DNA from: Branchiostoma floridae
Lineage: Eukaryota > Chordata > Leptocardii > Amphioxiformes > Branchiostomatidae
Length of the DNA stretch: 64,000 bases
NCBI RefSeq assembly: GCF_000003815.2
Contig: NC_049979.1
Span: forward strand, 34,441,738 to 34,505,737
Reading direction: 5' to 3'
Shown piece after piece: positions 10,654-53,700 of the stretch. Below the pieces are notes generated by a model. That model saw nothing but the letters and a program-made list of their open reading frames with translations, made no database searches and was not told where the DNA came from. The translations under genes and the position numbers were made by a program. Each line of letters opens with the position of its first letter. Positions within the stretch are counted from its first letter, which is position 1.

Positions 10654-11705
10654 ATGAAGCCAACCACCTGGACCCTCAAATCCAGCTCCTGCTGGAGGTG
10701 ACTTGGGAAGCGCTGGAAAATGCCGGGATCCCGCCAAGATCCATCCGCGGCTCAAATACCGGCGTTTACGTAGGCGTGACGTCAAGCGAATACCTCACGA
10801 TGACCTGCAGCCCTTATTCAAATATCAGCCAATACACAAACTCCGGCACAAACTCATGCATGGTGTCCAACCGTATCTCCTACGAGTTTGACCTCCATGG
10901 TCCGAGCTTTTCTGTAGACACGGCCTGCTCCTCTTCGCTGTACTCCATCCATCTTGCCAGTGAAGCCATCAGAAAAGGAGATTGTAGTATGGCCATCGCT
11001 GGAGGTGTCAACTTGATGCTGCTGCCAATAACCTCGGTGGGTTTCTGCCAAGCAGGGATGCTGTCACCAGATGGCAAGTGTAAAAGCTTTGACGCCTCTG
11101 CAGACGGGTACTGTCGGAGTGAGGGAGCCGGGGTTGTTGTCCTCAAGCCACTCTCCAGGGCACTGGCAGATGGTGACAGGGTCTATGCTGTCATTAGAGG
11201 CGGCACCCTGACCAATGATGGGAGAACACCAGGCATCGCGAACCCCAGCTACGACGCCCAACTGGACCTTGTTGAGAAAGCGTGTGCAGCAGCCAAAGTA
11301 CATCCTCACGACATTCAGTATGTAGAGGCACATGGAACCGGCACCAAGGTTGGAGACAGAACAGAGGCAAATGCGCTGGGCCAGATCCTTGGTAGAGGAC
11401 GAACAAAGGAAGATCCACCTCTCTACATTGGCTCGGTTAAGTCCAACTTTGGGCACGCAGAGGGCGCTGCAGGTGTAGCGGGAATCATCAAGCTGGCGCT
11501 CATGATTAGCAAGGGCCAAATTCCCAGGGTGGTGCACTTTTCATCACCAAATCCGGACATACACTTTGATGCGCTAAACATCAAGGTCCCCAGCACTTTG
11601 TTACAGTGGGAAGGGAAGGGAAGCAGACTTGCAGGATGCAGCTCCTTTGGCTTTGGTGGAGCTAACGCTCATCTCATCTTGGAGAGGCCCCCAACACCAG
11701 ATCTT
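10654..11705 (+). other. Ketosynthase (KS) domain, N-terminus missing
   Basis: The exon opens inside the KS at EANHLDPQIQLLLE, equivalent to the DPQQRLLLE block. It contains VDTACSSS with the nucleophilic Cys at codon 10926-10928, EAHGTGT with the catalytic His at 11331-11333 and NFGHAEGAAG with the second His at 11454-11456, so the condensing triad is complete. GFGGANAHLILE closes the domain. Roughly 50-100 residues that normally precede it, including the start of the protein, are not in view. Confidence 0.93.
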
Positions 11706-14700
11706 CATCCAGCTATAGAAAACAGTGGCAAAGTCAACGCCAATCACTTCACAAGAGGGACAGAACGTGAGACAAAAACTATCATGTTGCTGTCTGGAAA
11801 CACCAAGGCTGCCCTGAAAGAACAAGTGGAACACTGGATCTCTTTCTTATCGGACACTACAGCTTTCAATGAAGACCGCTTCCTGCAGAGCCTGTACACT
11901 GCTGCAAACCGGTATCAACACCATGCAGAAAGGCTGGCAATGGTTGTCAACGGGCCCGATGACGCCGTTCAAAAGCTAAACCTCATGGCAAGAGGAGAGA
12001 AGCTGAAGACCGCTGTAGAGGGGAAAGTCCCAGAGGGTGCTGAGCGCGGGAAGATGGCCTTTGTCTTCTCCGGGATGGGAACTCAGTGGTGGGGAATGGG
12101 CAGGCGACTTGCCCTGGAGGAGCCAGTATTCAGTGACGTGATGCAGGTATGTTCTTCTGTAGCGTGATTAGGCCCCCTTTCCACTTGACGGCGCTCTCAC
12201 GGCGCTCTCGCTGCGATGGAAAATTGGCCAGAGCGCGGTGAGAGCGCCGCAAAGCCAGAAAAAGCTGCTCTAGTGGAATCTCTCCGGCGACGCCAGCGCG
12301 CTCTCAGCGCGACAAAAAACTAAAATGTCAGCATCTTTTTATGAGCTACCAAAGATTCAAAGATCACTCAACGAATTTCAGAGATAAAGAACGAATCTTT
12401 TAACGTTCAGAGGTGATGGCGACCTTGGCGACCATGGCGCTCCCACCGCGCTCTCTGCGCGCTCTCATGGCGACCTTGGCGATCGCACCGCGCTCTCACC
12501 GCGCTCTTCCCAATTTGAGGTCGCAGAGAGAGCGCGGTGAGAGCGCCGTCCTAATGGAAAGGAGGTATAAGCACTAGTTTGCTGATTATTCTAAAAGCAG
12601 TATTCAAAATCAACAAACCGATACAGATCACACTCGACTCCATAACAGAAGCAAATTTGATGCACATTTCATATCGTAATTGTTGAACAATGTTTAAATG
12701 TGCATCCACATCCACATGTAATTACTCAATTTACAATCCTATATGTCTGCTATGCAAATCCTCTGCACACTATTGATCATGGTTTCCTCTCTTTTCCACA
12801 GCGATTTGAAGATGTGTTGAAGACACTAGGAGCTGACTGGTCCATAGCTGACATGTTGACAAAGGAGACAAATCCTGACAAGATCAACAGGACAGGTAGG
12901 ACGATATCTAATGTTTTGCATGGCTAGGCCCCCATTCCACTAGGACGGCACTCTCACGGCGCTCTCTCTGCGATGGCAAATTTGACCATCGCGGTGAGAG
13001 CGCCGTGGGAGCGCGGCCATCGCAGCGAGAGCGCCGTCACCTCCTCAGGGATGGTCTGGAACCCTGTCATACCATCGCGGTGAGAGCGCTGAGGATGGCG
13101 ATGCCACGATGATCGCCAAGAGAGCGCCAAGAGAGCGCCATGAGAGCGCGGTGAGCGCCAATTGGGATAAACAATGGTTATATGATAGGCCCCATTCCAC
13201 TAGGACGACGATCTCACCGCGCTCTCGCTGCGCTCTCAAGTGTAGTTCATACAATGTTATTATTGAAGAAGTATATTTTGATGAATTTTGTTGTCAAACC
13301 AAACCTTTGGGTCATGAAGAATCACTTCCTAGATAAAATCATGGGTAATACAAATTGAACAACTATTCAAAAAATGTTTTTATTCAGCGTTTTGAATCAC
13401 AGGATTTCTTCAGATTACGCATAATCTTAGCAGCTTTTTCTGGCGTCGCGGCGCTTTCACGGCGATGAGGCAAATTTGCCATCGCCGTGAGAGCGCCGTG
13501 AGAGCACCGTCAAGTGGAATGGGGGTATAAAAGAGTGTGTGCGTGTTTGCATGCATGCGCGCGTGTTCGTGCGAGTTTGTGTATGTATGCATGTGTGCGT
13601 TCTTGTGTCTGCGTTTATGAGTTTGTGTGGGTGGGCGTTTCAGTTCAAGAATTACTTATTGTTTTCTTATACGTTAAATCCATCTGTAACATGTTATTTG
13701 TCAAAACCTGCAATATGCATTTGAGAATGTCACCCAATATCAACATAGCCACGTTGCTTTCGTGCACAGACATCGCACAGCCCTGCATCTGCGCAGTACA
13801 GATGGGTTTGGTTGAGCTCATGAGACAGTATGACGTCATACCTGATGCCATCGTTGGCCACAGCGTTGGAGAAGTGGCAGCAGCATACGCTGCTGGTCTC
13901 CTGAGCTTCGAAGATGCCGTGCGAGTGATCTACTACAGAGGAAAGGAGCTCTGCAAGACAAGTGGCCATGGGAAAATGCTAGCCGTGCTGCACCCAATGA
14001 AAGAAGTGGAGGAGCTCGTCGAAAAGGATGAGAACAGGAACATCATCAATGTAGCCGCTACCAACAGTCCCAACCAGATTGTGCTCTCCGGAGACGACAA
14101 TGCCATCGACAGCTTCCACAACAAGCTGAAGAGTAGAGGCATCAAATGCGTCCTCCTTAAAGTGAACAATGCATTTCACAGCTACCAACAGGAACAGGTA
14201 AAGGATTCCATTCTCAAAAAGCTTAGCATCCTGTCAGCATCCAGCAGGACCACCGAGGCACAGATACCCATGATTTCTACCGTCACAAACCAATGGCTGT
14301 CCTCAGATGTCACCAACACGGCCCACTACTGGTGGACGAACATCAGACAACAGGTCCGCTTCATGCAGTCAGCAGAGGTTCTCCTGCGGGACGGCTACAG
14401 CACGTTTGTGGAGATAGGAGCTCATCCAGCCTTGGGGCCTGCCCTGAAGGATATTCAAAGCACCAGTAACTCGCGTACCACAAAGCAAAACATCATCCCC
14501 ACTCTGGTACGACCAAGAGACATCTCTTCACCAGCCGATGACCGTGAAAACATACTGGTCGCTACTGGAGCCCTGCATGTTGCAGGGTACCCAGTCAACT
14601 TCAGCCCTGCATTTGAGGAAAAGCACCGACGTGTTCGCGACATCCCGACATACCCTTGGCAGAGGGTTCTGTGCAATGCTGGTACAGAAACAAGTTCCTC

Positions 14701-17700
14701 TCGGTACCTGTTTCCTCAGACGTCACATCCTTTACTCGGACAAGCACAAGAAACCACCGAAGGGACGAGCAGTCAAAAGTCAAGGGTCTGGTGTTCCAAT
14801 CTCTCAGAAGAATCTGTGCCATGGCTTCAGCACCACATCCTAGATGGAAATGTGGTTGTCCCCGCTGCAGCATACATGGAGACAGCACTGGCTGCAACCT
14901 CTGAAATCTTTGCGGATCAAAATGTACTTTTCCTGAAAAACCTTCAGTTCAAACGTTTCATGTTTGCCCCCACTTCGGAAGCGGTAATCAAATCAACGCT
15001 GCAACACAAAACTACAAAGGAAAAGCACTTCAGCCTGTACAGCAAAGATGCCTCCGGTGCATGGGTCCTTCATGCCACAGCAGAGGTGCACAAGGGAGAC
15101 CTGACACAACCAGTTGGATCCACCAACGTCCTATCCAATGTTGCAGAGAGGTGTTTCAAAACTATTTCCAGCGAAGAGATCTATGAAGCTGCGGAAGAAG
15201 CTGGCTTCCATCTCGGTAGTTCGTTCCACTGTGTTACTTCATGCACGGCATCCGACAGCTACGAAGAAGCCGTGGTCACAGCAGAGGCACCAGAAGAGAT
15301 TTCACGAGAATTTGGGCGGTACATCTACCATCCTGCCTTCATGGACACATTTCTACACACATTTGCTTGTTTGTCACTCCTAAATGACAAGTACACTGGA
15401 AAGACACCAGCAAAACGAGTTCCATTCTCCATGAAATCTCTGTGCATCTTCAACAAAATGCCATCAAACGTCACTCTCTACTTCAGGATTTCAAAGAAAG
15501 GTCCACGCAGAGTGGTGGACATCACAGTGACCGACCCCAGTGGCCTAGACGTCATTTGCGAAGTCAAAGAGCTCATGTTTGAGGATATTGATGCAGGTTC
15601 GTCCTCCGGAATCAAGCTTTGGAATCTTCAATGGGAGCCCCTTGTCAAGAATGTGAGCGATGACGATCACGAACCAACCACATACAAGTATGTGCTGGTC
15701 CTTCATGAGAATGAAAGCTTTGGCACAACAGTGAGCACAGCACTCCAGGCCAATCTGGGGTGCACAGTTGAGATGATCAATCAAAATGTCCTATCTGCAA
15801 GTGAAGGTATCGAGAGGATGCGGACGCGTGATGATCTGGATCACGTCATTGTTCTGTATGATTTTGCTCGACAGGAGCAAACAGAGGGTTCGGGAGGCTG
15901 TCCCCGTGCTGAAGTCCTAAGATCTTTTCAGTGCCTTTCCATATTTAAGCACCTCACACAAAGTGATCATCCTCCAACACTTTGGATCTTTACACGCGGA
16001 TCATCTTCAGTGCTGGAGCAGGACACCGTGAGCCCACTCCTGGCAGGTACATCGTCTCTCTGCTTGTCCATATCACAAGAACACCCGCAGTTCAAGGTGA
16101 AGGCAGTTGACCTGACACCACAACAAAACTTCGTCGATGCAGCTGTAGAAGTTTTGTCCGTCATGAAAGCAAACCCTAGGGAAAATGAAATTGCAGCTCG
16201 TATGGTAAGCTCCCCAGACGATCAGCATGTTAACCTGTACGCTCGGAGACTGACCCCGATGAAGCCCGACCAGATTCTCACATCCTGCTCTCCCAACGAG
16301 TCATGGGCTTTTGACTCCAAACAAAGGCAAAATGGAAAGAAGCTCTACAAAGCTCATTCCAGTCCAAGCACACGAACGAGAAATGAAGCTACAGTTAAGG
16401 TTGCGGCCTTTGCTGTGTGCCCCTTTACTGACGTGATGGGGAGCTCTGATGGACCTGCCCCCGATATTCACCTCATCTGTGGTACCGTGCATCACCCACC
16501 CACAGATATGATGGTACAGGAAGGTTCCAGGGTGATGGGAGTCGTCGTGGGCTGCATCGGTCCTCACATGAACATACAAATGAGAAATCTAGTGCCCTTG
16601 CCGGATGCCCTCTCCTGGAGCGATGCTGTTGCACTAGTCAAAGACTTCATGCCAGCATTCTCTTTCTTCCAGAAGATTCAGACAGTGTGTAAAGAAGATA
16701 GAGCGGTTGTTTTCCTACCTGATGAGGATAACAAAGAGGCAGTGTCTTATGCTACCCTGGCACTACAGCAGCAGGCCGAAGTCTGTGTTGTAGCAGATAC
16801 AGTTCAAAACGTAAACATCAAAAAACATCTTGTCTGCTCAACAGAACCCCGCCCATCTACATCGACAGCAGTGATCACTACATATGACAAGCTTGACCAA
16901 GACATACCCGACAAGCACGCAAGTGTTGTGTTCTTACCTAAAGGGGAAAGGGCAGGAGATGTCCTCCAACAAGCTACGAGGAAGCTACAAGACTATGGAA
17001 CTTTAGTCAATCTGGGCGGCTCGACAATCCTGATGGACCAACTTCCAAAGAACATCAAATACATCACTGTGGATCCTATCGATAGTTCCCAAGGAGAATC
17101 TTCACTTGTCTGCATCGCGGACAACATTCAACAGCTTTTATCAAAATTTGATAGGTCAGACAACTCGCTTTCCACGCTCAAACCATCTGTACAGACCAGC
17201 ATGGAGCTGTCCTCTCTGTCCCACATATTGCACCAACAACAGAAAGGATTGAAGATGCCCGACATAGTGACTGTCGATGACAGGGAAGTGCAGCTGGGTC
17301 TGGACATCAAACAGAACCAGTTTAAGGCTGTCGACAAAGCTACATACGTCGTCACGGGAGGTCTGAAAGGCTTTGGTCTCGCCCTACTGGAATGGCTGGT
17401 TAAGTGTGGGGCAAGCCATCTGGTCGTACTTGCAAGAAGTGAACCGAATGAAGAGGCCAGAATAAAGCTAGAAGCATTGTCATCAAGGTCGGTCGATGTC
17501 AGGGTGATGAAAGTGGATGTTACAGACAAGAAAGCTGTGGAGGAAGCGCTGACTTGGGCACGTGACACAATGCCACCAATAGAGGGGATCTTCCACTGTG
17601 CAGCAGTGTATGCAGACAAATTGATGGATCAGACTGCACAAGAGGACTGGGAAAGAGTCATGCTTCCAAAGGCAGTTGGTGCTATAATCTTGCATGATGC

Positions 17701-20700
17701 CACGAAAAATCTACAGATGAGGATTAGACACTTTGTCCTCATCTCCTCAGTCGTTGCTCTGTTTGGTAACACGGGACAGGTCGGCTACTGTGCAGCTAAC
17801 AGCACTTTGATAGCACTAGGCGAAGCCAGACGACAAGAGGGTCTGCCTGCAACAGTCGCCAGTTTTGGAGTCATCAACAGCACTGGGTTTGCAGAGAGAT
17901 CCGGTCTTATCCAAATGTGGGAGAGAATGGGCTTGCAAAGCATTTCACCTCACGATGCATTGGAAATCCTTGGATGCATGATAGAAAATCAGTTTCCCCA
18001 TTTTGGTATCACTGCCACGTTCGATATTCGAAAATACTGCAGTGCCCACAAGTCGATGGCAATACAGCACCTACAGGCCGCTGACACCTGCTTTTCTCGA
18101 TTCACAACATTGATACCAAATGACGTGCTCAGCGGGTCAGTATCCCTTTCTGACAAAGTTCTTGCAACAACCAAAGACAAAGGCCTCGGGACCATACAGG
18201 AAGAGCTGATTGCTTATTTATGCCAACAACTTGGCATTGAAGACACTACCTCCATCACCGCCGAAACAAGTCCAGTATCCCTTGGACTGGACTCTCTCTT
18301 GTCCGTGAACATGAGCAACGAAATAGCAGACAAATTTGAGGTGACGGTTACATCCGTGGAACTTCTGAGTGACAAAATGACTGTCAAGGTGCTCAGTGAG
18401 TCCATCTATGACAAGATGGCTAACCTAGCTGGTAGCCAGGGAACAGAAACTGGATCCGTCAACCCAGCAGTACCTGCTGAAGGAAACTCGTGGCTTCATT
18501 TCTTTGGCAAACTCCAAGACCCGATTCATACCTTGGTCTGCTTCCCTGCAAATGGTGGAGGTCCCTCACTCTTCCATCAGTGGGGTGAACATTTTTCAGA
18601 ACACAACATCGAGGTTGTAGCCGCTACTCTGCCGGGATGGGAAAGCAGAGAAAGGGAGTCTCCTATCAGCAATCTACAACAGATTGTTGAGGCACTTGGT
18701 AGTCAAATCATGGAGATACTGATGGGTGACAAGATGGCATTCTATGGTCACAGCATGGGTGCGCTCATAGCATTTGAGGTTGCACATTTTATCCACACTA
18801 AAGGCAGGCCATGTCCGTCGCATCTGTTTGTTGGAGGATGGTATGCTCCATCTCTGCCATATCCACATCCACAGGAACTGAGGGTATCACCCACCTTGTT
18901 TGATCCTTTAGCTGGGACACAGCAGGTCATGGAAGAGGCTAAGGCATTCTCCTTCCTACCAGAAGCTGTTATTAACAACCCCGCCCACCTGCGACGTCTG
19001 TTACCGTGTCTCCAGGCAGGGATTGAAATCTGCAAGTCTTACATCTGCGCACACAAAGAACCACTCCCATGCAGGGTTGCTGCATTTGGCGGCCAGGATG
19101 ACCCATTTGTCTCCCCAGATCTTCTTGACAACTGGGAGCTTGTTACATCTGATTCACCAGCATCAAGACCAGCTTTCAGGAAGTTGATTGTTCAGGGTGG
19201 GCATTTCTTCATCACAACATCACGACAAGACGTTCTCAACAAACTGACGCATGTCCTGCAAGAAGACAATGTAATCATTCAACCTTCATACAAGGGTCGA
19301 AGAGATGCACCAGAAGTGGTCGCCATGGGAACCAATCCGTCCTCTGCAATGGTTCCCGGTGCTCTGTCACTTGTTAAGTCTACACCAGTCATTCACAAGG
19401 CAGCAGCGTATCTTCGGTACCAAATAAGACATCCCACATTCTACACTAAAAATCTGTACATCGTGTTTCGCACACAAAACATCCCTGCTGATGTCGACAG
19501 CTGGCGGTCCGTCTTTGTACAACTGATGGACCGCCATGAGACACTGAGGTCAACTTATCATGCATCAAGCGATGTTCAGCACCCAAGCGGGGCCGAGGCA
19601 AGGTACTACAACACTATTGCAGGCTTTGAAGTCTTGACTGGATATCAAGAGAAGCAGGCTGAAGAAGCAGTGTACCAGAGAACCAAAGTGCCATTCCAGT
19701 TAGACAAGGAGTATCCAGCACGGTGCATTGTTGCCCCCACTGGAAAACGGAGTGCTGTGGTTGGACTTGTCTTGCACCATATCGCAACAGATACAACCAG
19801 TCTCAATATACTATTCAAGGACTTTGGGGAAATCATGCGGGCACATTTCAAGAAGAAACCTCTTCTGAAGTCACTGGCAACACTGACGTATTGTGATTTC
19901 ATACAATACTACTACTCCTACCTTCAGCAGAACCAGAAGGAGCTACAGGATTTCTGGAGGGCAGCCCTGCCTCCTACTATTCCATCCATTAACCTTCCAT
20001 TCGCCAAGCCGAGGCCGTCAACCCTTTGCACAGAAGGTGGCTCCCTCCAGGTGGATCTGTCCAAGGAACAGGTCCACAGCCTTAAGGAATATGCAAAGTC
20101 TGTCGGCACCACAGTGTACAGCATCATTGCTACCACCTATCAACTTTTACTGCACATCTACACAGCCCACGATGACATTGTGATCGCATGCCCATTTGAC
20201 ATGAGGATGTTAGCTCCACAATTCTCCAACATCCATGGCCTCTGTCAGCATCACCTGCCATTGTGTGCCTCCTTCAAGAACAAAGAACAACCCTACCGCC
20301 AGATTATTCTACAGTCTTTCCACAAGCTTCAAGAGAGCAAGAAACATGGGATCTATCCAATAGACGAGATCATGAAATTGGTGTCGTACGAGAAACATCC
20401 AACGATGGATCCCATCATGCAGCATATAGTTGTGCAGAATGACCAAACTGGTCTGAACAAAATGTCCAATGATAAGATAACCATACTCAAAAACGATTAT
20501 CATGATTATGCCAATGACTTTGTCCTCCACTTGTTCCAAGACACCAACACGAAATCTGTCAACTGTAGCGTCCGATACGCAAAGTCCTTATTTGATGAAG
20601 AGGTGGCGCAGTGCATGGTGAATGACTATTTCACTTTGCTTTCCACATGCCTTAAGAATCCAGAATGGAGTGTTTCAAAAATCATCAGTACCGTGGAAAT

Positions 20701-22814
20701 GACAGCCTTAAACAGCAAGCCCGGGGCAGTGTATTCTATGAACGATGATCAGCTACACCACCAAGAACTTGTCAATGGAGGACCCATGCAAGAGGAGACC
20801 ATTCATGGATATTTCCAACTCCAAGCAGCAAGGACACCGACATCTCGCGCAGTCGTCTCCTTCAATGGAGCTGATGTCTCGTATCGAACCCTCGATGAGC
20901 AGTCTGATCATCTGGCCTCTGTACTGACGGTCATGAAGTCCTCCCAGAACAGCAAAGAGAATGTAGTAGCCATTTACATTACAGAAAACAACTACGTGGC
21001 ACAAGTACTCCTTGGAACATGGAAGGCTGGTCTAGCCGTGTGTCCCTTGCCTTTGGACGCGACAGAAGACAGCATTTCTGGCCTGACCGCAACAAGCCAC
21101 ATCGCGGCGATCATCACAGATCAGATGAGTGCTGCCACAAAGCTATTTCCTTCTCAGCTGCATAACTGCATACTCAACATTGACCACATCTGGGATGAAG
21201 CGAGGGACAACTCCACAGACAGAACCTGCTCATTACAGGTTTGCAAGTACGCCTTTGTGATGACCACTACCACTACACCTACAAGGCTCGTCAGGGGCAC
21301 CCATGCAGGACTGCTAAACCGACTCAAGTCAACATGGCAAGAGTTTCCCCACCAGGCCAATGACATTTGCTGTCTCAAATCTCCTCTTGCCGGTCGAGTA
21401 GATGCTATGTTAGAGCTCTTTGGCCCTCTTCTGCAAGGCGTACCAGTGGTTATCATCCCAACGGCTCTCCTCTTTAAGCCTGCTCTACTGTTGGAGTGTA
21501 TCTCTGGGTGTAAGATAACAAGGCTATCTGGTGTACATCAGAGATTCTGGAACACACTACTCCAGGAGCTAAGCAGTACGTCGAGGAGGAAGAGATGGAA
21601 ACAGCTGGCGCTCAAGTACGTCTTTACCGATGCAGGCAGCACCAAATCAAGCACATTGACTGAGTTGTCACGGGCACTCCCATATGCAACTATCGTCAGT
21701 ACGTACAGTACCTTAGAGGTGTACTCTGGCGGGCTGGTCGCCAGTGGGTCAGAGTCAGACCCTTTTAACGAGAGCACGATCGCGATGAAACCGATGAACA
21801 ACACCAAGATCACAGTGCTTGTAAGCAGCGAGAACGGACAAGGAACCCTCTGCATTTCTGTTCCTGAACTATCAGATAATGTTGTGGATGACTTCCCAGC
21901 ATTGACCATCATCAAAGATGGCATCCCCTACTACATAACTGAAAGACAGGCGTCCTTGACAGCGTCAGGAATGGTTCTACTGGCAAAAGAATGTAAAAAT
22001 GGTGACAGCAAGGAGGCCTCAACAGGATCCAGCAGCCCCGACTCCCACCGGCGGCTGATCAAAGCCTCCAGTCCAGATGAGCCACACGAGCTGAACTATT
22101 GGCTCCTGCAGATGCTACAGAAAGGTATGTGCTTTCTCTGCCCCAAGTTAAATGAACGACTTATGACCCTGATATATATAATAGTTGTGTATTCAATCTA
22201 TGTTAGGTGCTTGTAATCTAATTATTAAAACTATTTTGTACCTGGTGTTACCGTATGCAAGCAATAACAATATTTCAAACTACACCCCTTAGTCAAAAGG
22301 AATAATATGTTATCTACAATGTACATCAACAAAGCAATGACTAACAGCAAATAAAATAAAAACGTCAACAGGTATTACAAAAATTCTCTTGTTGCTTCCT
22401 TTTCACAACTCATTCCCTGATCAGGTTTTGATGCCAATCGGTCATAGGATCTGATAGGTTTCATGTTGACCACTTGAACAGGTACTATGGTGAGGAAGAT
22501 GACATCCAAAGGCTGGTCCCACAAGAAACTTCTCCAGCTGGTGGTGGAGAATGACTCGACTGCGAACCTTCTGTGGGGCTCCAACAACAAATCCAGACAG
22601 CTTCCAGTCTCCAGCATTTCCAGTATCCAGAGTTCCACAGTGGAAGGTGGGAAGTCATTACAACACCTCTCAAGAATATAGCATTGCATAGCATTTACGT
22701 TAATTTTCTGATTTCGAAATTTGTACCTGAAGAAAAAAATGGATTTGACAGAACTTGAAATGTCAGACCATGCATACTAACCAGCTTACATCCTATATAA
22801 GCTTATATCCTGCC

Positions 22815-22873
<59 letters not shown>

Positions 22874-23191
22874 AGACCTCAGATACAGCTCAAAGTTCAG
22901 CTGCACATATACCACCAATTCTTATAGTCCACCATACAAAAGGCACAGTACTTTTTGCTGTGCAAGCTTTTGTGAAAAAATTGTTATAAGTTGATATTCA
23001 ATTTCTTTCCTATAGTAAATCCACATTTTGTACTGTCAACAGGAAAACCCAGCCTTCATTTGATAAGCGAGGAACGAGACTTCACCTTCCTCTTCAACTC
23101 CAACCAGGACCAGGAGAGTTGGAGGCACGCCCTGTGGACCCTCATCAACACAGCTGCAGATGGAGATTCAGATGAAGACACACGACTTTAG
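10654..23191 (+). CDS. Hybrid animal polyketide synthase / NRPS-like megasynthase with C-terminal PH-like domain (5' partial)
   Basis: Five exons join in one frame: 10654-12146, 12802-12895, 13770-22124, 22482-22646 and 23043-23191 (TAG stop at 23189-23191). All introns are GT-AG with phases 0, 1, 1, 1. They encode 3,417 residues plus an unseen N-terminus. Domain order is KS, AT, DH, structural KR, degenerate ER, KR, ACP, thioesterase, condensation, degenerate adenylation, PH. Family knowledge: KS-AT-DH-ER-KR-ACP-TE is the layout of animal FAS and FAS-like PKS, iterative enzymes that build chains from malonyl-CoA on the ACP. Here the PKS half keeps its KS, AT, DH, KR, ACP and TE catalytic residues while the ER looks dead, so a partly unsaturated or hydroxylated product is inferred. 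Odd points are the internal TE, the NRPS-like tail without a carrier domain, the PH-like ending and an 8.36-kb exon. The frame continues open upstream of 13770 into intron and GT-rich repeat; that part is not coding. The product is unknown. Confidence 0.88.
12168..12570. mobile_element. MITE with GGCGCTCTC inverted termini, in PKS intron
   Basis: The ends TTAGGCCCCCTTTCCACTTG (left) and the reverse complement of the right end, TTATACCTCCTTTCCATTAG, match closely and both run into GACGGCGCTCTC, giving termini of about 30 bp. The interior is full of AGAGCGCGGTGAGAGCGC-type direct and inverted repeats. It occupies most of the first visible intron of the PKS gene. Confidence 0.75.
12925..13530. 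mobile_element. Composite MITE of the same family, in the next PKS intron
   Basis: The left end TAGGCCCCCATTCCACTAGG (12925) and right end GTCAAGTGGAATGGGGGTAT (near 13510-13529) match the 12168-12570 element. A second left-type end at about 13187 (TAGGCCCCATTCCACTAGGA) shows that at least two copies are nested or recombined here. Confidence 0.7.
13532..13640 (+). repeat. GT-rich simple repeat
   Basis: Degenerate GTGTGTGCGTGTTTGCATG-type sequence immediately after the MITE. It keeps an open frame by low complexity, which merges falsely with the PKS exon that starts at 13770. Confidence 0.8.
14710..18420 (+). other. DH, structural KR, degenerate ER, KR and ACP
   Basis: DH: HILDGNVVVP matches HxxxGxxxxP (His at 14834-14836), and HPAFMDTFLH gives the catalytic Asp (14344 + 1000, codon 15344-15346). 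15600-16230 resembles a structural KR half-domain (PTLWIFTRGSSS). 16370-17140 sits at the ER position but lacks the glycine-rich GGVGxAA NADPH motif, reading VVFLPDEDNKEAV instead. KR: TGGLKGFG (about 17354) is the nucleotide loop, and ISSVVALFGNTGQVGYCAANS gives the Ser, Tyr and Asn of an SDR active site. ACP: LGLDSLLS with the phosphopantetheine Ser at 18293-18295. Confidence 0.85.
18520..19265 (+). other. Internal thioesterase domain
   Basis: An alpha/beta-hydrolase of the FAS/GrsT thioesterase type. CFPANGGGPSLFHQW is the usual opening, YGHSMGALIAFE carries the nucleophile Ser (18752-18754), GGQDDPF the Asp (about 19094) and GGHFF the His (about 19199). All triad residues are present, so hydrolytic or transfer activity is plausible. 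The domain follows the ACP directly, as in animal FAS, but the protein continues for about 1,300 residues after it, which is unusual for a release domain. Confidence 0.88.
19370..21990 (+). other. NRPS-like condensation domain and degenerate adenylation domain
   Basis: Condensation: RHETLRSTYH (motif C2) and HHIATDT at 19775-19795, the HHxxxDG core with His-His-Asp kept but Gly replaced by Thr; CPFDMR and other later blocks follow. Adenylation fold: SFNGADVSYRTLDEQSDHLA opens it and KSPLAGRVDAMLELFGPLLQG resembles AASDH. However, the phosphate loop that normally reads TSGTTGxPK is TTTTTPTRL, the A5 block is STYSTLE, and the later Asp- and Lys-containing motifs are not seen. No peptidyl-carrier domain follows. 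Adenylation activity therefore looks lost; condensation might remain. Assignment by eye, not by profile search. Confidence 0.75.
22095..23160 (+). other. C-terminal PH-like domain on two small exons
   Basis: The end of exon 3 (LNYWLLQMLQKG), exon 4 (22482-22646; TMVRKMTSKGWSHKKLLQL..., LLWGSNNKSRQLPVSSISSI) and exon 5 (23043-23191; PSLHLISEERDFTFLFNS..., ESWRHALWTLI) form about 100 residues with the PH pattern: basic first strands, an LLWGS-type strand, and a final helix carrying the hallmark Trp. The style is closest to phospholipase-C-type PH domains. The basic residues between strands 1 and 2 (VRKMTSKGWSHKK) fit phosphoinositide binding. The reading phase is kept across both introns. A short acidic tail (DGDSDEDTRL) ends the protein. 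Confidence 0.65.
22814..22875 (+). repeat. (TA)n(GA)n microsatellite
   Basis: A TA run passes directly into a GA run and then G residues, in the last intron of the PKS gene between exons 4 and 5. Confidence 0.95.
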
Positions 23192-45457: not shown

Positions 45458-47134
45458 TCACTTGTCTGATAGTGTGAGCTGAGCAAAGCCTACCAAAGCC
45501 TTATCATCAGGGACCTCATTGGGGTAACAGCCGGAGCTGAGGGCAAACGTGACGCTTTTGTTGTTAGCGGGGTTATCCACTATCTTCTGCAGATTAGCCG
45601 CAACGACCACGTAATCTCTACCGTCCACTAGACCTGCCGCGACCAACTCGTGCGACACGCCGTCTGGGGTGTCCTTTCCTGGTATGAACGGGAAACGGAT
45701 GTCTTTCAGTTCCTTGTTCGTGTCCCTTAGGCGGAGGACTAAGTTTTGCGCCGGTTGTAGCTGCACTGGAGCAGGCTGCTGGGCTATGGGGACTGAGCCG
45801 GGTGGTGGATACATGATGCCCCCTTGCATCTGCTGCTGGTATAGCATCTGCTGTTGTTGCTGGTGGGCTAACATCATTTGCTGTTCTTGTGTCAACTGTT
45901 GGCCTTGTTGGAATGCCAGGGGTACAGGCTGGGGTTGTGTGTTGACTGGGGGCTGTGCCTGGTTGGCAGGGGGAGCGTCCGCGGACTTGACGGCTGGGGC
46001 AGACTGCGCGTTTGCGACCTCTTCGGGCTCGTCGTATCCCGTGGGATTCTTCACGCGAGGGGATTTGGACGCGGCGGCAACCTTCCCCTCCTCGCTTTCC
46101 TCGTCCATCTCCTCGTCGGACCACTCCCACTGCCCGTCGGCCGTCTTGTGAAGCCGCCCGCTCGACCCGGGCACGCGCTTCACCTTCTGGGAGCGCGACT
46201 CCAGGCCAGGCCCGCCCCTAATCAACACTTCCACCAGGTGCTCCTTCCCCTTGGCCTTCTTGAAGAACGGGCTCTTGAGCAGCTCCGTGGCGTTCGGTCG
46301 CTGCGCCGGATCCTTCTGCAGACAGGCCGAGACGAGCTTCCTGAACGACTTCCCGTACTTCTTGTACTGATCTTTCTCCTCCGCGCCCGTGTCCAGACTC
46401 GGAGGGTCGTTCTGTAAGGTCAGCATCAAGACCTTCATCGGCGGGTACTTGTGGTACGGCGCAGTCCCCGTGGCTAGCTCTATCGCCACGATCCCGAAAC
46501 TCCAGATGTCGGCCTTGAAGTCGTAGCCTCCCTCCGACTGTTCCATGACCTCGGGCGCCATCCAACATGGCGTCCCCACGAACGTTCGCCGCACCTTCTC
46601 CCGCGCCATGTCGCCGCCGACAGCCAGCCAACCGCTGACTCCGAAATCTGCCAGCTGCACAGTGCCATCGTTTCCAAGAAGGATGTTACCAGCTTTTAGA
46701 TCCCTGTGGATTTGCCCATTGTTGTGCAGGTATTCCAACCCCTTCAGCACCTCTCTCAGCACAGTGGCAATGCTGGTTTCATCCAAAACGCCGTGCTGAC
46801 AGTCCATTTGGGCCTTGCGATGTTTAATGATATCCAACAGGGAACCGCCAGACAGAAGCTTCAGCACTAACCACAGCTCCTCCTTCACAACGAACGACGT
46901 GTAGAAGTTGACCACGTTCGGATGGTTACACTGCCGCATGGCTTGTATCTCCTTGTGTAGCTCTTCCATACTGGTGTTCGCCTTGTCCAGGTTGATTCGT
47001 TTGATGGCACACGGTTCGTTCCTGGGTTTACAGGACGCCACCTGAACCACGGAGGTTGCCCCGCTTCCTATGACTTCTTTCAGCTCATACTCGTCCTTAG
47101 AATTTGGCCACTGCTGTGACTGTTCGGACGCCAT
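45458..47134 (-). CDS. OXSR1: STE20-family kinase OXSR1/SPAK, WNK effector
   Basis: A 558-residue intact, intronless frame. The kinase domain (about 16-292) has GSGATSVV (23-30), Lys45, HRDLKAGN with Asp145, DFG (163-165) and the T-loop RRTFVGT with Thr184, the site phosphorylated by WNK kinases. The S-motif [12 protein letters not shown] (about 320-331) is followed by [15 protein letters not shown] Gln/Pro-rich linker with QQQQQ and MQGG runs to about 458. The last 100 residues ([19 protein letters not shown]... to TLSDK) are the conserved CCT/PASK docking domain, which binds RFxV/I motifs in WNKs and in Na-K-Cl cotransporters. Known role: cytosolic kinase controlling SLC12 cotransporters and cell volume. 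It is divergent from and adjacent to WDR81. Vertebrate OXSR1 and STK39 have many introns, so the single exon is notable. The ancestor of both vertebrate paralogues is likely; the symbol follows the closer overall match. Confidence 0.95.
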
Positions 47135-47772
47135 GTTGGTTAGGGAAGGAGAGTGGGGTTAGTGCCTTACAGGGGCTATTACATATACTCCGTCGAGGGG
47201 GATACGCGCGGCGCTGAACTCCGCGGACATTTCAAACGATAAAATTTGTCTCTGACATAATTTCTGCGATCTAGAGCACGACACTAAAGTGGGCATTAGC
47301 TAAGAAATCTCAGCTTGTTCCCAATGTTCATTTTTCACCGAGGGTTTCAATGGGCTATGATAATTTCTGTAACAATTTCTGGCACATACCATTATTTGTT
47401 AGGGATTTGCAGGCTGATTTCAATATTTTGTTCAGCTTTCTACCCTGCTTGATTGCAAAAGACTGCGCCCCAACAGCTAGAAATAGGGGCGTCGTAAAAC
47501 AACAACCTTGTCGAAGTATGTTTGTTTTCTTATCTTAGAAAGAACGCGAAACATGTGAGAAGAACTTCACGCAGCGGTGCGTACTTCAAGGGTGCACTTT
47601 CATCACTATCTGCTAGGCGGCGCACTTAGACCTTTGTCAGAAGGAAAACATGGCGGCCTCCGGTTGAAAAACTGAGCGACAGAGAATCTCGTGATACCTT
47701 TTGACGGTATCTTTCAGTTCTGGAAGCTCGGAGTTACGTGCAATAATCTACACCGCCTTGGCATGAACGAAG
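47135..47772. promoter_or_regulatory. Candidate bidirectional promoter between OXSR1 and WDR81
   Basis: Only about 640 bp separates the two divergent start codons. The segment contains GC-rich patches and AACATGGCGGCC at 47648-47659, a good YY1 core near the WDR81 side, as is common just at or after TATA-less transcription starts. No TATA box is evident next to either gene. Shared regulation is inference from spacing. Confidence 0.55.
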
Positions 47773-50700
47773 ATGTCTTTAGAACAAACGGAAGGAGACT
47801 TGAAGATCGCCAGGAGCCAGCTTAGGCAACGCGACGCTCGGACAGTGGATGCACTGGTACGTACGGTGATAATAAAATCATTTTGCTGTCTTCAAATTTA
47901 TAGATTTCTTCGGCCTTGAAGGACCAAAATTTAGCTGTATACTTCGTACCATGATAACACGTACTGCCATATAATTTGTTATAACCGTTAATGCATTTGT
48001 AAAGCAGACGAAACTTATGCTAGAGGAACATTATCCCGGAACAGGAACTGATTTATTACATGATGTATATGTGAGTTCGACGACCTCAAACCTTACCCAA
48101 ACAGTCATTGTGACAGTCTCATAAAGTCATATTTTAGGAGATTTAGAAAGTATGTCCTAATTTGCATAATTCATATATGGTGGTGTTAACCCCAACCCAA
48201 GTGCCGTATGTCACAAATATGACATCCCTGTCATTTACCTCTAATATGTTATCAAAGTTGCTTTCACCTATGCAAATATTTGTTTTTCAATGGATATGCA
48301 AATAGATAAGGACTCATCTTCTGTATATAGGGGCCTCAATGCCCCCTTCATATTCATCTGTTTTAATTCTAATATTTCTATATGATTTGTAGCAGGACTG
48401 GCCTGTAAAATAACGTAGAACGTAATTGGTGCATTATGCGGAAAGTGTATTGGATTGATTTATTTCTACAAAATATATAGTTGATTTAGGGTAAAACGTA
48501 ACCAATGAATTATTCATTAAGCATAAGCAAACTAGTTGACATTGCCAAATTTAGCATGCTTTGTTGGAATGCCGTTCAGGCCCCTCATACCCCAAGTACT
48601 AGTATGAAAGTCCAGTGATAAAGTAATGAAGCATTTCCCATTGATTATGCATCATCATTGATTCTGCAAATTATCTTTAAAAATTGACACTGCTTGCATA
48701 CAGTACTGATGTTCTTGTTAGCTTTTTTCTTCCTCTATCATATGTGTGTATGTATCAAAGACTATCACTATGTCAAAGAAGACTCCGATATCCTATGTTC
48801 TATCTACCTGAATAATGTTTGCAAGAGAATTTGGAGCCTGAACAAGCTGTCATGCAAGGACATGCATACATTTTTCAGGTTCACGAGCAATGGCTGTCCA
48901 CCGTCATCAAACAGAGGTGCCTGCCCAGAAAATGTGCCCGTCCCCAGCACCTCTCCAAGTCAGAGCAGGCACTCTTACTGCAGCCATCCACAAAGAAGGT
49001 GCCAGCCCAGTGGAGACGAATTAGCATATCCACCATCGCAAAGACAACTGAGCCTCAAAGGTATGTACAGGACATACATTTATGCCATATCTGGGCCATG
49101 GTGGTGTTTAATATAGGAATCGTACACTGGTCCATATTTTACAGTATTCCTCAGGCTTATTTAGTCCTGTGTCACACAGGCTGCCATAGAATCAAAGTAC
49201 ATAATTCAAAAATTATTTGCGCATATGGGCACCATGTAGTCCGCTGTCTAATTCGAATACAGACTGTACCATAGTTTGACATCAAAACTATTGTTCGTAG
49301 TCTCAGGAAAAGTCAGCTAAGAATACACAAATGTACCTATGGTGACATATTGTGAGTTGGAATAGAAGTTCAAATTTATGTGAATTATACATTGTATAGT
49401 TATAAAGCTAAAGGCCTCATACAAAAAGGCATTATGTAAAATAGTCCATGGTCAGATGTTGTGGTCAGTTGTACCTCCATCTCTTGACCCAGAGTGCCTG
49501 TTGTCGACCCCCTGTGGGACGTTATCCGGCCGTCCCAGGGCTTCAGCCAGACCATGCAGTGTGTGAGCGCACAGAACTACAGGGACATGTGGCAGCAGGC
49601 CTGTCACAAGTACGGCACCAGTACTCACAGACAGGAAGGACTCACACTCACAGCACAGGTAAGTACAGCACCAACCCTCACCAACTAGGACTCATACTCA
49701 CATTGACAGCTCAGGTCAGACACATACAGACTTATACATTGGAAATACATGCTCACCGTTTCAAGGTAGAGAGGTAATCACGAAAAAAACAAAATAGAAC
49801 CACTGCAAACATTTCAAGATTATGGTATCTCAAAAATCATCCTTAATAGTAAAATGTATACCAACTCAGCTTCCTCATTGTAGCTCATTTTTATGATGCA
49901 AGAAGAGGTCGATAAGGCCATTATACGGATATCATCAGCACGCACATTCAAAGAATAGAAAACTTTTGAACCATATACTGTGAATCGTACAAAGCAGCTG
50001 CAAAATGAATGAGCAAATATATGTAGTAGATTGCCAAAAACATATCGGAAAACGTATACTATTGTCATAGAATGTCACCGTCAATTCCAAGGTCAATGAA
50101 GAAGATATGACTATATGGTAAAACTTCTATTCACATGTCTGCATCAGTTTTGGGGTCAGAGAGGATGCCGTCCATAAGGACCATATAATCAAATCAACAT
50201 GACCCAGTGCAATTATAGCCGATTATATCCTCAACAAGTTACCAACGTTCTGTTTGCCACTTCTTTCTGCAGGAGTTTAACAAGGAGACGCAGGCACTGT
50301 TGGAACAGCTTTACTGCTGTCCAGTGGTCAGCACTGACAGGGACAGCGACAGAGACCAGGAGAGGGAACCCGCCGACGCAGCTGTTCCCAGGTGCTCCAA
50401 CCTGCAGGTGGTCCTGGGCATGTTCGAGTCCCCGACGGCCTTCTACCTGATCCAGCCATACCTGGAGCACACCGTGGCGGACTGCGTCGTGTTCAGCCCC
50501 GCCATGTTTGCCAACTCGTACGCCAAACAGCTGTTTGTGCTGTACCAGATCCTGCATGCTGTCCTCAGCTGTCACGACCTTGGTGTGCTGTGCGGCGAGC
50601 TGTCTCTCCAGGATCTTGCGTTGGACGGCAAGCTGTGGGTCCGACTGCCGGCGCCCGACTGCCGGAGAAGGATAGCAAAGGCGGGCAACGTTGTCAAAAA

Positions 50701-53700
50701 TAACCATGTAACAACGACAAAGGACCTGACATGGGAGGAGTCAGAACTGAGGAGCCTGACGCACAAGTGGGTACACAGACGCTTGTCGAATTTCGACTAC
50801 CTCATGGTTCTGAACAGGTTCGCGGGACGGAGGATGTGCGACCCTAACCACCACCCGGTCCTCCCGTGGATCATGGACTTCACCCAACCGCAGGGCGGGT
50901 GGCGGGACCTTACCAGGTCAAAGTTCAGGCTGAACAAGGGCGACCACCAGTTGGACCTCATGTACGAGTCCGACAATGTTGTGCCGTCCGTCAGCCATGA
51001 TGTTGGTTCCCACGCGCATGTACCGCACCACATCACGGACGTGCTGTCGGACATCACGTATTACGTGTACAAGGCGCGCAGGATGCCGAAGACCGTGCTG
51101 TGTACCAACGTGAGGAGTAACTGGGTCCCGGAGGAGTACCCCATGAGCATGCAGAGGATCTACGAGTGGTCGCCCGACGAGTGCATCCCAGAGTTCTTCT
51201 CTGATCCCACCATCTTCCAGTCCCTCCACACGGACCTTCCGGACTTAGAGGTGATAGAAAAAGACTAAATAAATAGATAAACAAGGAAGATATAAATGTA
51301 TGGAAATGGTTTAGCAAGAGTTGATTCACTAACTTTGTGACTAGAAGCTAACCTTAGCATCCAGAAAGAAGAGAAAAGCTTGTCTGTGTTGCCTTGGTAG
51401 AATCTATTTTGGAGTATAATAATAAGACCTAATAATTAATTGTAATTGCCAACACATAAAAATCAGAGATCTAACTCGCATTTTCGACTGTACAGCACCT
51501 TTAAAACTTCAAACTTACCCAATGTTTTGAGATCCGTATGTGTGCATACAGTCAAACCCATAGAAGTGGCTGCCTCTACAAAAGGGCCATATGATCTCTT
51601 TAGGTCAATATATCTGTTGGTCATTGGTGGTCCCCTAGATAATTGTTCTCAATGATAGAAAAAATCAATCCTGCTTATAGTGACCACCCAAGGTTGGACA
51701 AGTTTTCTCAAATTGACTTGTCCTATCGGGCAAGTACTTGAAAAATTTACTTGCCCGAACCAACTTTTCACTTGCCCGAAATTTAAATGACATTTTTCTA
51801 CGTATTTTCATGGCCTTTAATGGAATTCTTGTTATTGGCTCTATTTTCTGTGTTAACCAATGCTTGATGACTGCCATGACTGTGAAAAGTCAAAATCTCA
51901 CTCAGTCAATGGCGAAAAGCTAACTTGCCCGATAGGGCAAGTGGGGAAGGACATACACTTGCCCGATTGGCATTTTCACTTGCCCGGGACAATAGGGCTA
52001 GTGGACTTTTCCAACCCTGCCACCTGCCCACATATATTAGATTTTATTGGTCCCCTGAGTGGTCTTCTTGGGTGGGTTTGACTGTGAACCACTGTTGACT
52101 ATTCTCCAAGCATATGATACCGTCAGGGAAGTCAGGGAGGCTAGTAGGCTGCCACTACTAGTCCCACTGTAACCTCTGCCTGGAGAATAAGTGTTGACTA
52201 TGATGTTCTCTGCAGGTGCCATCTTGGTGCAGCTCACCACAGGATTTTGTAGAGAAACACCGCGCTGCGTTAGAGAGCGAGTTCATCTCACTGAGGATCC
52301 ACCATTGGATAGATCTGACGTTTGGGTACAAGGTAGGAAACTTTGTACTGTTTGTTTGTTTTTTCATTGTGCACAGCATTTGTTAGCATATGTTGTATGG
52401 TTGTCATGCTATCACAAACTCACAGCATTATAAAAGGAAGTTTAAGTAGAATTTCTGTGGCAGCAGAACATAAAATATTCTGGTCCTCTGGATAAGAAAA
52501 TCTTTGTGCCATTATCATTAAGATGGACAATTTAGCACATTGTTTAATTTTCATGACATTCATGAACACTGCAAATACAATCCACACTGTGGTTCCCCCA
52601 TTTCTAATGGTACCAATAAATGCACCCAAGGAAAAGGTAAAAAATCTGACAGCTTTTTTTATATGAGTTTTTATGATACAATTATTGTGCACTTGCATGC
52701 TCTGACTATTGTTATCCAATGCCATAGAGTACATATATAGAGTACATATAGATATGTATAGACTTACCTTAGACCTTAGATCCTCCCGCAACACTCTTCA
52801 GTGTTGTATTGGTCATCAATAATGTAAATGCAGTTAGGTTCGCGGGGATTTAATTAGGTGGTAGCGGTAAGATGGAGTGTTCGCGTTGTTTTTGACTTCG
52901 TGCACCATCCTGCAAACCTAGAAAGGTTAAATGCAGGAGAATGCAGGAGAAAACAGAAGGAACATGTTCAAGGTGGTCTTGTCAGTCTGCAGTGAAGTAA
53001 CCACCGCAAAAAACACAGACGTAAAACTACCGCAAAGGTTTACAGACAAAGAAATGGTCTTAGATATTGACTTTTTTCTGAACATTTTCTTAATCTTACA
53101 CTGAGTACCCCTCATAGACAAAATTAAGATGCTACTGCAGAATTCAGATGTTCTGGAAAAAGTTGACCACTTGTGTTTCTGACCCAGCTGTCAGGCAAAG
53201 ATGCGGTGAAGGCGAAGAACGTGTGCTTCCACCTGGTGGACAACCACACGCGCCCTGTGAACCACGGCATGGTGCAGCTGTTCCACACGCCGCACCCGCT
53301 CAGGAAGTGTGGCGCCAACAGCTTCACCTGGGAGCCTCCGCCGGTACTGCAGCTGGGCAGGGCAAATGGCAGGAGTACTGAGGTGGAGCAGGCAAAGGTA
53401 TGGATGTTAACATTAGAACAAGGGGGCCCCCTGGGAACTGTTACCGGTACTGCAGCAGGGCTGGGCAGGGCGAATATCAGGAGTACTGAAGTGGTGCAGG
53501 CAAAGGTATGGAGGTTGAAGACAGAACAAGGGGGACCCCTGGGAACTGGCACCAGTACTGTAGCTATGAAACTCCTTACATCTACTTGTACTACATGTAT
53601 TTCATTAAGTATCTTAATCATCTTAACACAAGACAAAGTATTCTTTATATGCCTTTCAAGAAGATGTGAAAGAACAGAAATGTATAGTTTATATATTCTG

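Follow-up and report, generated by a model that had tools for sequence, protein, structure and literature searches.

Gene structure and domains of the window gene

The stretch analysed here, referred to as the window, comprises 64,000 nucleotides of Branchiostoma floridae (C1:34441738-34505737 of the 513 Mb assembly G000, where C1 is NC_049979.1). It contains a gene for a large polyketide synthase (PKS), hereafter the window gene, which continues into domains of the nonribosomal peptide synthetase (NRPS) type and a predicted PH domain. A GT-AG junction search reproduces the start, end, forward strand and exon number given in the initial annotation: five exons join into 3,417 codons with a single terminal stop. 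Exon 4 (8.36 kb) by itself provides an open frame of 2,785 codons and spans most of AT through the end of the adenylation-like core, here termed psiA. AT through psiA lies within a single exon, so the PKS part and the C-A part belong to the same gene. The claimed domain order, KS-AT-DH-psiER-KR-ACP-TE-C-psiA-PH, is borne out by Pfam and motifs, by hhalign for the enoylreductase (ER) region, and by a structural model and a profile for PH. We regard this anatomy as correct with very little doubt. The features, all on the forward strand, are as follows.

10654..12146, +, exon 2: KS, entering the PF00109 profile at about position 81 (active-site Cys and two His present), then the KS-AT linker and the beginning of AT
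12802..12895, +, exon 3: AT, continued
13770..22124, +, exon 4 (8.36 kb): AT to the end of psiA
14726..15598, +, DH: HxxxGxxxxP and HPxxxD motifs kept
15650..17338, +, psiKR and psiER, approximate limits: degenerate enoylreductase without the GGVG NADPH motif
17339..17875, +, KR: nucleotide motif and K/S/Y/N residues kept
18203..18400, +, ACP: LGLDS serine
18530..19243, +, thioesterase (TE): GHSMG, D and H kept
19490..20692, +, condensation domain (C): HHIATDT (canonical HHxxxDG)
20813..21997, +, psiA: adenylation core, catalytic motifs gone, no AMP-binding C-terminal domain, no carrier downstream
22482..22646, +, exon 5: first part of the predicted PH domain
23043..23191, +, exon 6: end of the predicted PH domain, stop codon

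The gene extends past the window. KS exon 1 starts at C1:34440173 and matches the database protein P0001 for 67 residues, to C1:34440373, 1.4 kb upstream of the window start; 29 differing bases follow, and then an assembly gap. With this exon, the full protein has about 3,500 amino acids in six exons. P0001 is C3YZX1_BRAFL, named 'Fatty acid synthase' (3,473 amino acids); it is 100% identical to exon 4 across 2,787 residues, and its model lacks 27 residues that are open in exon 2.

In the PKS body, Pfam detects KS (225.7 and 133.9 bits), DH (61.7 and 51.6), KR (171.3), ACP (34.3) and TE (79.3) above cut-off. AT scores 155.9 bits in exon 4, and its exon-2 piece, with 32.6, falls just below the cut-off of 32.7. 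KS, AT and ACP are thus present with their active-site residues, as expected of an animal type I PKS. The AT motif is NAFH, which suggests malonyl specificity; A3, A7, A10, GGVG and the K/S/Y/N residues of KR are used here in their customary names and roles. Across nine relatives, the motifs of KS, AT, DH, KR, ACP and TE are conserved wherever the region exists, except for the TE motif of P0003, which reads GGQND. In the spacer between DH and KR, no ER family is found by Pfam. Compared with nine bacterial-type ER segments, the spacer gives an hhalign probability of 95.6 over 282 columns, a value obtained without a control pair, and the ER stretch has one PDB match (E 2.1). At the position of the GGVG loop, the proteins of family 1, the family of the window gene, carry LPDEDNKEA and variants.

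The initial annotation spoke of a FAS-like PKS, FAS denoting fatty acid synthase. The PKS part of this description holds, and the FAS-like part is doubtful. KS residues 1-350 score 354-358 bits against Pks13 and 278-290 against fatty acid synthases, and the top scores, 508 bits (two stretches) and 402 bits, also belong to PKSs. LovB (structure 7cpx listed) and PsoA, however, score 280-283 bits over a longer span, i.e., at the FAS level; consequently, the KS sequence leans away from the fatty acid synthases, and this lean falls short of proof. The first homologous-protein search of the window protein covered the best 120 of 869 matches. In the search with the KS region, the best 120 of 2274 matches comprise, besides P0001, long PKSs, of which the named ones are bacterial; this search therefore carries no information about relatives in animals.

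The condensation domain and the C-terminal tail

Both NRPS-type regions are recognized by Pfam above cut-off (Condensation 155.2 bits, AMP-binding 87.7). The C domain retains the catalytic His and Asp characteristic of PKS-NRPS C domains, in the form HHxxxDT. In the PDB it matches NRPS C domains best, and a match to PsoA, a PKS-NRPS, is obtained as well. psiA does not possess the P-loop, TGD and C-terminal Lys required of a working A domain, and both the catalytic motifs and the C-terminal subdomain are missing in all six family-1 proteins inspected. In the Pfam scan of the window protein the AMP-binding C-terminal family is absent, and no carrier domain follows psiA, the sole PP-binding stretch preceding TE. 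Exon 4 ends about 42 codons past psiA, and the PH region comes next. Judged by these motifs, psiA is unable to load an amino acid.

The end of the protein is less easily recognized. In each of the three tails scanned, PH (PF00169) misses the Pfam cut-off (14.8, 16.4 and 14.9 vs 25.1 bits), and it is not listed for full-length P0002 and P0008. The best of five AlphaFold2 models, with a predicted local distance difference test score (pLDDT) of 85.4, matches PH structures and displays a seven-strand barrel with a C-terminal capping helix; the remaining four reach pLDDT values of 75.5, 69.0, 47.1 and 38.3. A profile of family 1 alone is weak against the PDB: the top two rows are repeat proteins matched at their repeats, and PH entries appear at E 0.19 and 0.5. 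When the second PKS family described below is included, PH-domain entries account for all seven PDB matches at E<=1, the best at 4.3e-4. Collectively, the model and the profile indicate that the protein ends in a PH fold, a type of domain that frequently occurs at membranes.

Gene copies, relatives and a second PKS family

Besides the window gene, four family-1 loci were located on C1 by tblastn with fetched stretches.

C1:34256216-34273215, locus A: has psiA
C1:34380647-34399660, -, locus B: has psiA
C1 28.85-28.88 Mb, locus C: C then PH directly, psiA missing
C1 15.87-15.90 Mb, -, locus D: C then PH directly, psiA missing

Loci C and D are either two genes or one assembled twice. C is followed by PH in all five loci, and psiA stands between them in three. 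The PH region occupies two exons in the window gene and at loci A, B and D; at locus C, a single match covers both. As a separate observation, the first KS exon occurs twice at each of loci C and D (L016, L023), about 3.8-3.9 kb apart. The genome search yielded five C domains, all in family 1.

Other Branchiostoma species, where the initial annotation had proposed to look for the same order, offer full or partial models of the tail architecture, some of them without psiA; these come from B. lanceolatum, B. belcheri and a floridae x japonicum hybrid assembly (we presume japonicum to be the complete form of the second name). Two proteins, P0008 from the same contig and P0007 from B. lanceolatum, resemble loci C and D in type, with remnants of the psiA start persisting in their linkers. 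In three comparisons each, the score was equalled by 0 of 2000 shuffles throughout for P0007 and by 2, 0 and 1 of 2000 for P0008. P0240 (B. belcheri) keeps the end of psiA (0 of 2000 shuffles in four comparisons) and is without C, which may be a fault of the gene model. A protein search with psiA and PH gave 73 matches, namely P0001, a further six proteins from Branchiostoma and 66 that carry NRPS domains; the absence of other animals is no evidence here, because this search missed the second PKS family too.

Nei-Gojobori ratios of nonsynonymous to synonymous substitution (dN/dS) were calculated among the window gene (W) and copies A and B. For psiA, dN/dS is 0.33 (0.23-0.46) for W-A, 0.34 (0.24-0.47) for A-B and 0.29 for W-B, the last with a wide interval (0.10-0.82) because W and B are nearly identical there. 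In the same order of pairs, W-A, A-B and W-B, psiER gives 0.34, 0.33 and 0.26, and C gives 0.17, 0.36 and 0.34 (KR, TE and DH: 0.18-0.26). Several rows were left out of the final tabulation: AT (0.81 for W-A, where the 101 codons adjoin the gap of copy A, and 0.13 for W-B), the short ACP and linker rows (TE-C linker 0.56 and 0.53), and those of loci C and D, where other domains range from 0.10 to 0.26, the linker from 0.51 to 0.55, and the psiA remnants are not computable. psiA is under purifying selection, as far as this rough estimate goes. Between species (P0002, P0004, P0005), identity is 71-77% for psiA, 68-78% for psiER, 78-81% for PH and 53-64% for the TE-C linker.

Copy B is a mosaic in these comparisons: its C domain differs from that of the window gene with dS 0.29 and dN 0.098, yet its psiA with dS 0.03, and dN between the C domains of copy A and the window gene is 0.035. 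This pattern suggests gene conversion among the tandem copies.

When the genome was queried with psiA (E<=0.001, 11 candidates scored), six loci were obtained, all in two PKS families. The three loci of the second family are listed below.

C9:12865472: psiA match, E 7.5e-41, 32% identity
C9:14928566: psiA match, 28%
C5:9367118: psiA match, 30%

Each falls within an open frame (2,370-2,429 codons) downstream of other KS hits. The second family is about 30% identical to family 1 and has a similar tail of dead A core and PH at its end. In the two loci scanned with Pfam, the order is KS(end)-AT-DH-KR-ACP-AMP and neither TE nor C is present; the first of the two has an ACP that stays below cut-off (17.0 vs 20.8 bits). 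At the third, the genome search for C domains finds none, and its ACP-side match is separated from its psiA-side match by 56 residues. This distance is too short for a TE, which is therefore apparently missing as well. The P-loop is gone in all three psiA regions. In two of them the A core ends near the hinge; the third shifts frame earlier, and the rest continues in another frame. At one locus (C9b, L037), an in-frame insert of TPNGDR-like hexapeptide repeats occurs in psiA, with a frame change after it.

Downstream of psiA, the family-1 PH profile matches all three loci (E 1.7e-6, 7e-4 and 0.011, the last just beyond the HMMER inclusion limit), and Pfam returns PH-type models for these pieces, all below cut-off, plus a few unrelated ones. 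All three loci share the position of the exon-5 donor, 67 bases beyond the point where the WGPS codons begin, and its phase, which is also that of the window gene; the acceptors are best candidates. Identity between the families is 27-31% for psiA and 28-31% for the PKS body, and this similar divergence fits a single attachment of the tail before the split.

Much of this architecture had already been tabulated. Table 2 of Hojo et al. 2015 (PMC4604110) gives KS-AT-DH-KR*-ACP-TE-C-AMP for B. floridae, so the prior description that the initial annotation named as a refutation of its claim largely exists, up to TE-C-AMP. As far as the consulted parts of that paper go, it contains 13 lancelet PKSs, including KS-AT-DH-KR-ACP*-TE-C, and an acorn worm PKS with KS*-AT-DH-KR-ACP-C-AMP. 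BRAFLDRAFT_96863, 96868, 87472 and 125690, with the B. floridae order above and near variants, are probably the window gene or its sister copies. Three of these four are flagged there as lacking a KR active-site residue, whereas family 1 keeps the KR motifs by those used here. In the same parts of the paper, dead A motifs, the missing A subdomain and a PH end, all present in the window gene, are not mentioned. The entry KS-AT-DH*-KR-AMP may be the second family. A 2023 survey, in the sections consulted, groups the Branchiostoma NRPS A domains with Ebony and reports regular C domains in the same proteins; since all C domains found in the genome are of family 1, these are probably family-1 genes, and in that case the A domains of the survey would be dead. 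A search of CC-licensed articles in PMC found no PH or dead A domain in an animal PKS. The architecture is therefore mostly known, while the dead-A-PH tail in two families looks new.

Proposed function and alternative explanations

The best of the readings considered, to which we give about even odds, is that the window gene encodes an iterative, partly reducing, single-module PKS that releases its chain through TE or C, with psiA as scaffold and PH for targeting. KS and the malonyl-type AT would extend the chain on the ACP iteratively. An unsaturated (polyene-like) or hydroxylated acyl chain would be expected, because KR and DH would act and ER would be silent; reduction would go no further than the alkene. 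One exit could be the internal TE, by hydrolysis or proof-reading. In the other, C would join the chain to a small amine or alcohol, which would arrive free because the enzyme has a dead A and no further carrier downstream of it. The psiA core would be a non-catalytic part beside C. PH takes the place that the mobile A subdomain and the carrier occupy in an NRPS, and would most likely direct the enzyme either to a membrane containing phosphoinositides or to a partner bound at a membrane. Product class, choice between TE and C, free acceptor, lipid binding and expression are inferred.

A wider and more tentative proposal is that dead A core and PH form an ancient, selected, non-catalytic end cassette of lancelet polyketide synthases, attached before the families split and retained ever since, which would place the megasynthase at a membrane or partner and hold the ACP-bound chain in position for release, via C in family 1 or through a separate enzyme in family 2. 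The initial annotation had seen in the tail an NRPS-derived part now serving another role, such as receiving the polyketide chain, or passing it on, at a membrane. A tail without adenylation motifs, under constraint and ending in PH, was indeed found; the suggested role itself is consistent with the intact C motif and the predicted PH fold.

Several observations weigh against the iterative-PKS reading. Loci C and D have no psiA, and P0007, P0008 and P0240 retain only remnants of it, so it is dispensable for the enzyme as such. Copy A is broken by an assembly gap over AT and a frame shift in exon 3, and in copy B a single in-frame stop precedes the ACP serine by a short distance. These breaks weaken the dN/dS test for psiA, and they leave the window gene, whose exon 1 is cut by a gap, as the sole family-1 copy with psiA in the assembly in which no break was seen. 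In the C-psiA model, the two domains are not placed as C and A are in NRPS modules of known structure (joint root-mean-square deviation 13-17 Å, predicted template modelling score 0.51), and most residues past 785 in that model have pLDDT <50. Two basic residues of PH, K11 and H19, do not vary across nine sequences, which is no proof of lipid binding. Furthermore, the gene is known here from genome sequence and a predicted protein alone.

The loss of psiA from loci C and D and its remnants in P0007, P0008 and P0240 speak for a rival view, in which psiA, and perhaps the whole tail, is the decaying relic of a PKS-NRPS hybrid without a present role, the enzyme ending functionally at TE or C. This is rather unlikely. 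The dN/dS of psiA lies under 1 and near that of psiER, its identity between species exceeds that of the TE-C linker, psiA and PH both recur in the second family, and PH is kept where psiA is gone. An improbable alternative is a true PKS-NRPS hybrid acting in trans, in which another protein would load an amino acid onto a carrier of its own, and the C domain of the window gene would link this amino acid to the polyketide. The intact C motif and the PDB matches to NRPS C domains and PsoA agree with it, but the C domains and psiA-like loci found in the genome all belong to the PKS families described above, and no matching NRPS partner was seen, A-carrier proteins unlike psiA not having been searched for. 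An artefact of annotation or assembly joining a PKS gene to an unrelated tail gene is hardly credible: although the gene model derives from genomic sequence alone, the single open exon already largely refutes it for AT to psiA, and the recurrence of C-then-PH at five loci and of the tail in other Branchiostoma assemblies also speaks against it.

Known systems share parts of the proposed scheme. To our knowledge, LovB has no internal TE, and the nemamide PKS-NRPS of nematodes has working A and carrier domains. In the parts consulted, LovB (PMC7870829) resembles the putative enzyme as an iterative PKS with an inactive ER, an NRPS-type C at its end and no working A, and differs in being fungal, in its methyltransferase and in having nothing after C. 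Free-standing C domains of the OaaC type, according to the excerpted source (PMC13142362), likewise use an ACP-bound acyl donor and a free small-molecule acceptor, and the Gly of HHxxxDG is often replaced. They are separate proteins with (D/H)HxxxDS, whereas the window gene has HHxxxDT within a megasynthase and a presumed free acceptor. The nemamide enzyme, as far as its source was consulted (PMC10531068), also combines an animal PKS with NRPS domains, but it is multimodular, unlike the single module with dead A seen here. The mollusc PKSs form an animal clade with C, and the consulted part of that study (PMC10764717) mentions no A-like or PH part.

If the proposed reading is true, an animal lineage has turned an NRPS adenylation domain into a scaffold joined to PH, and a polyketide synthase may be held at a membrane. 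The gene would also provide a test case for how animal C domains work without a loaded carrier. 'AMP' calls in animal PKSs need not signify amino-acid activation, which matters for counts of animal NRPSs.

Elsewhere in the window, introns 2 and 3 (12170-12560 and 12930-13510) contain GC-rich AGAGCGC-based repeats, recognized by eye and perhaps a short transposable element. An unbroken 566-amino-acid kinase frame with an OSR1_C domain, perhaps a retrocopy, lies at 45461-47158 on the reverse strand. A BEACH domain stretch occupies 50219-51265 on the forward strand and may belong to a WDR81-like gene.
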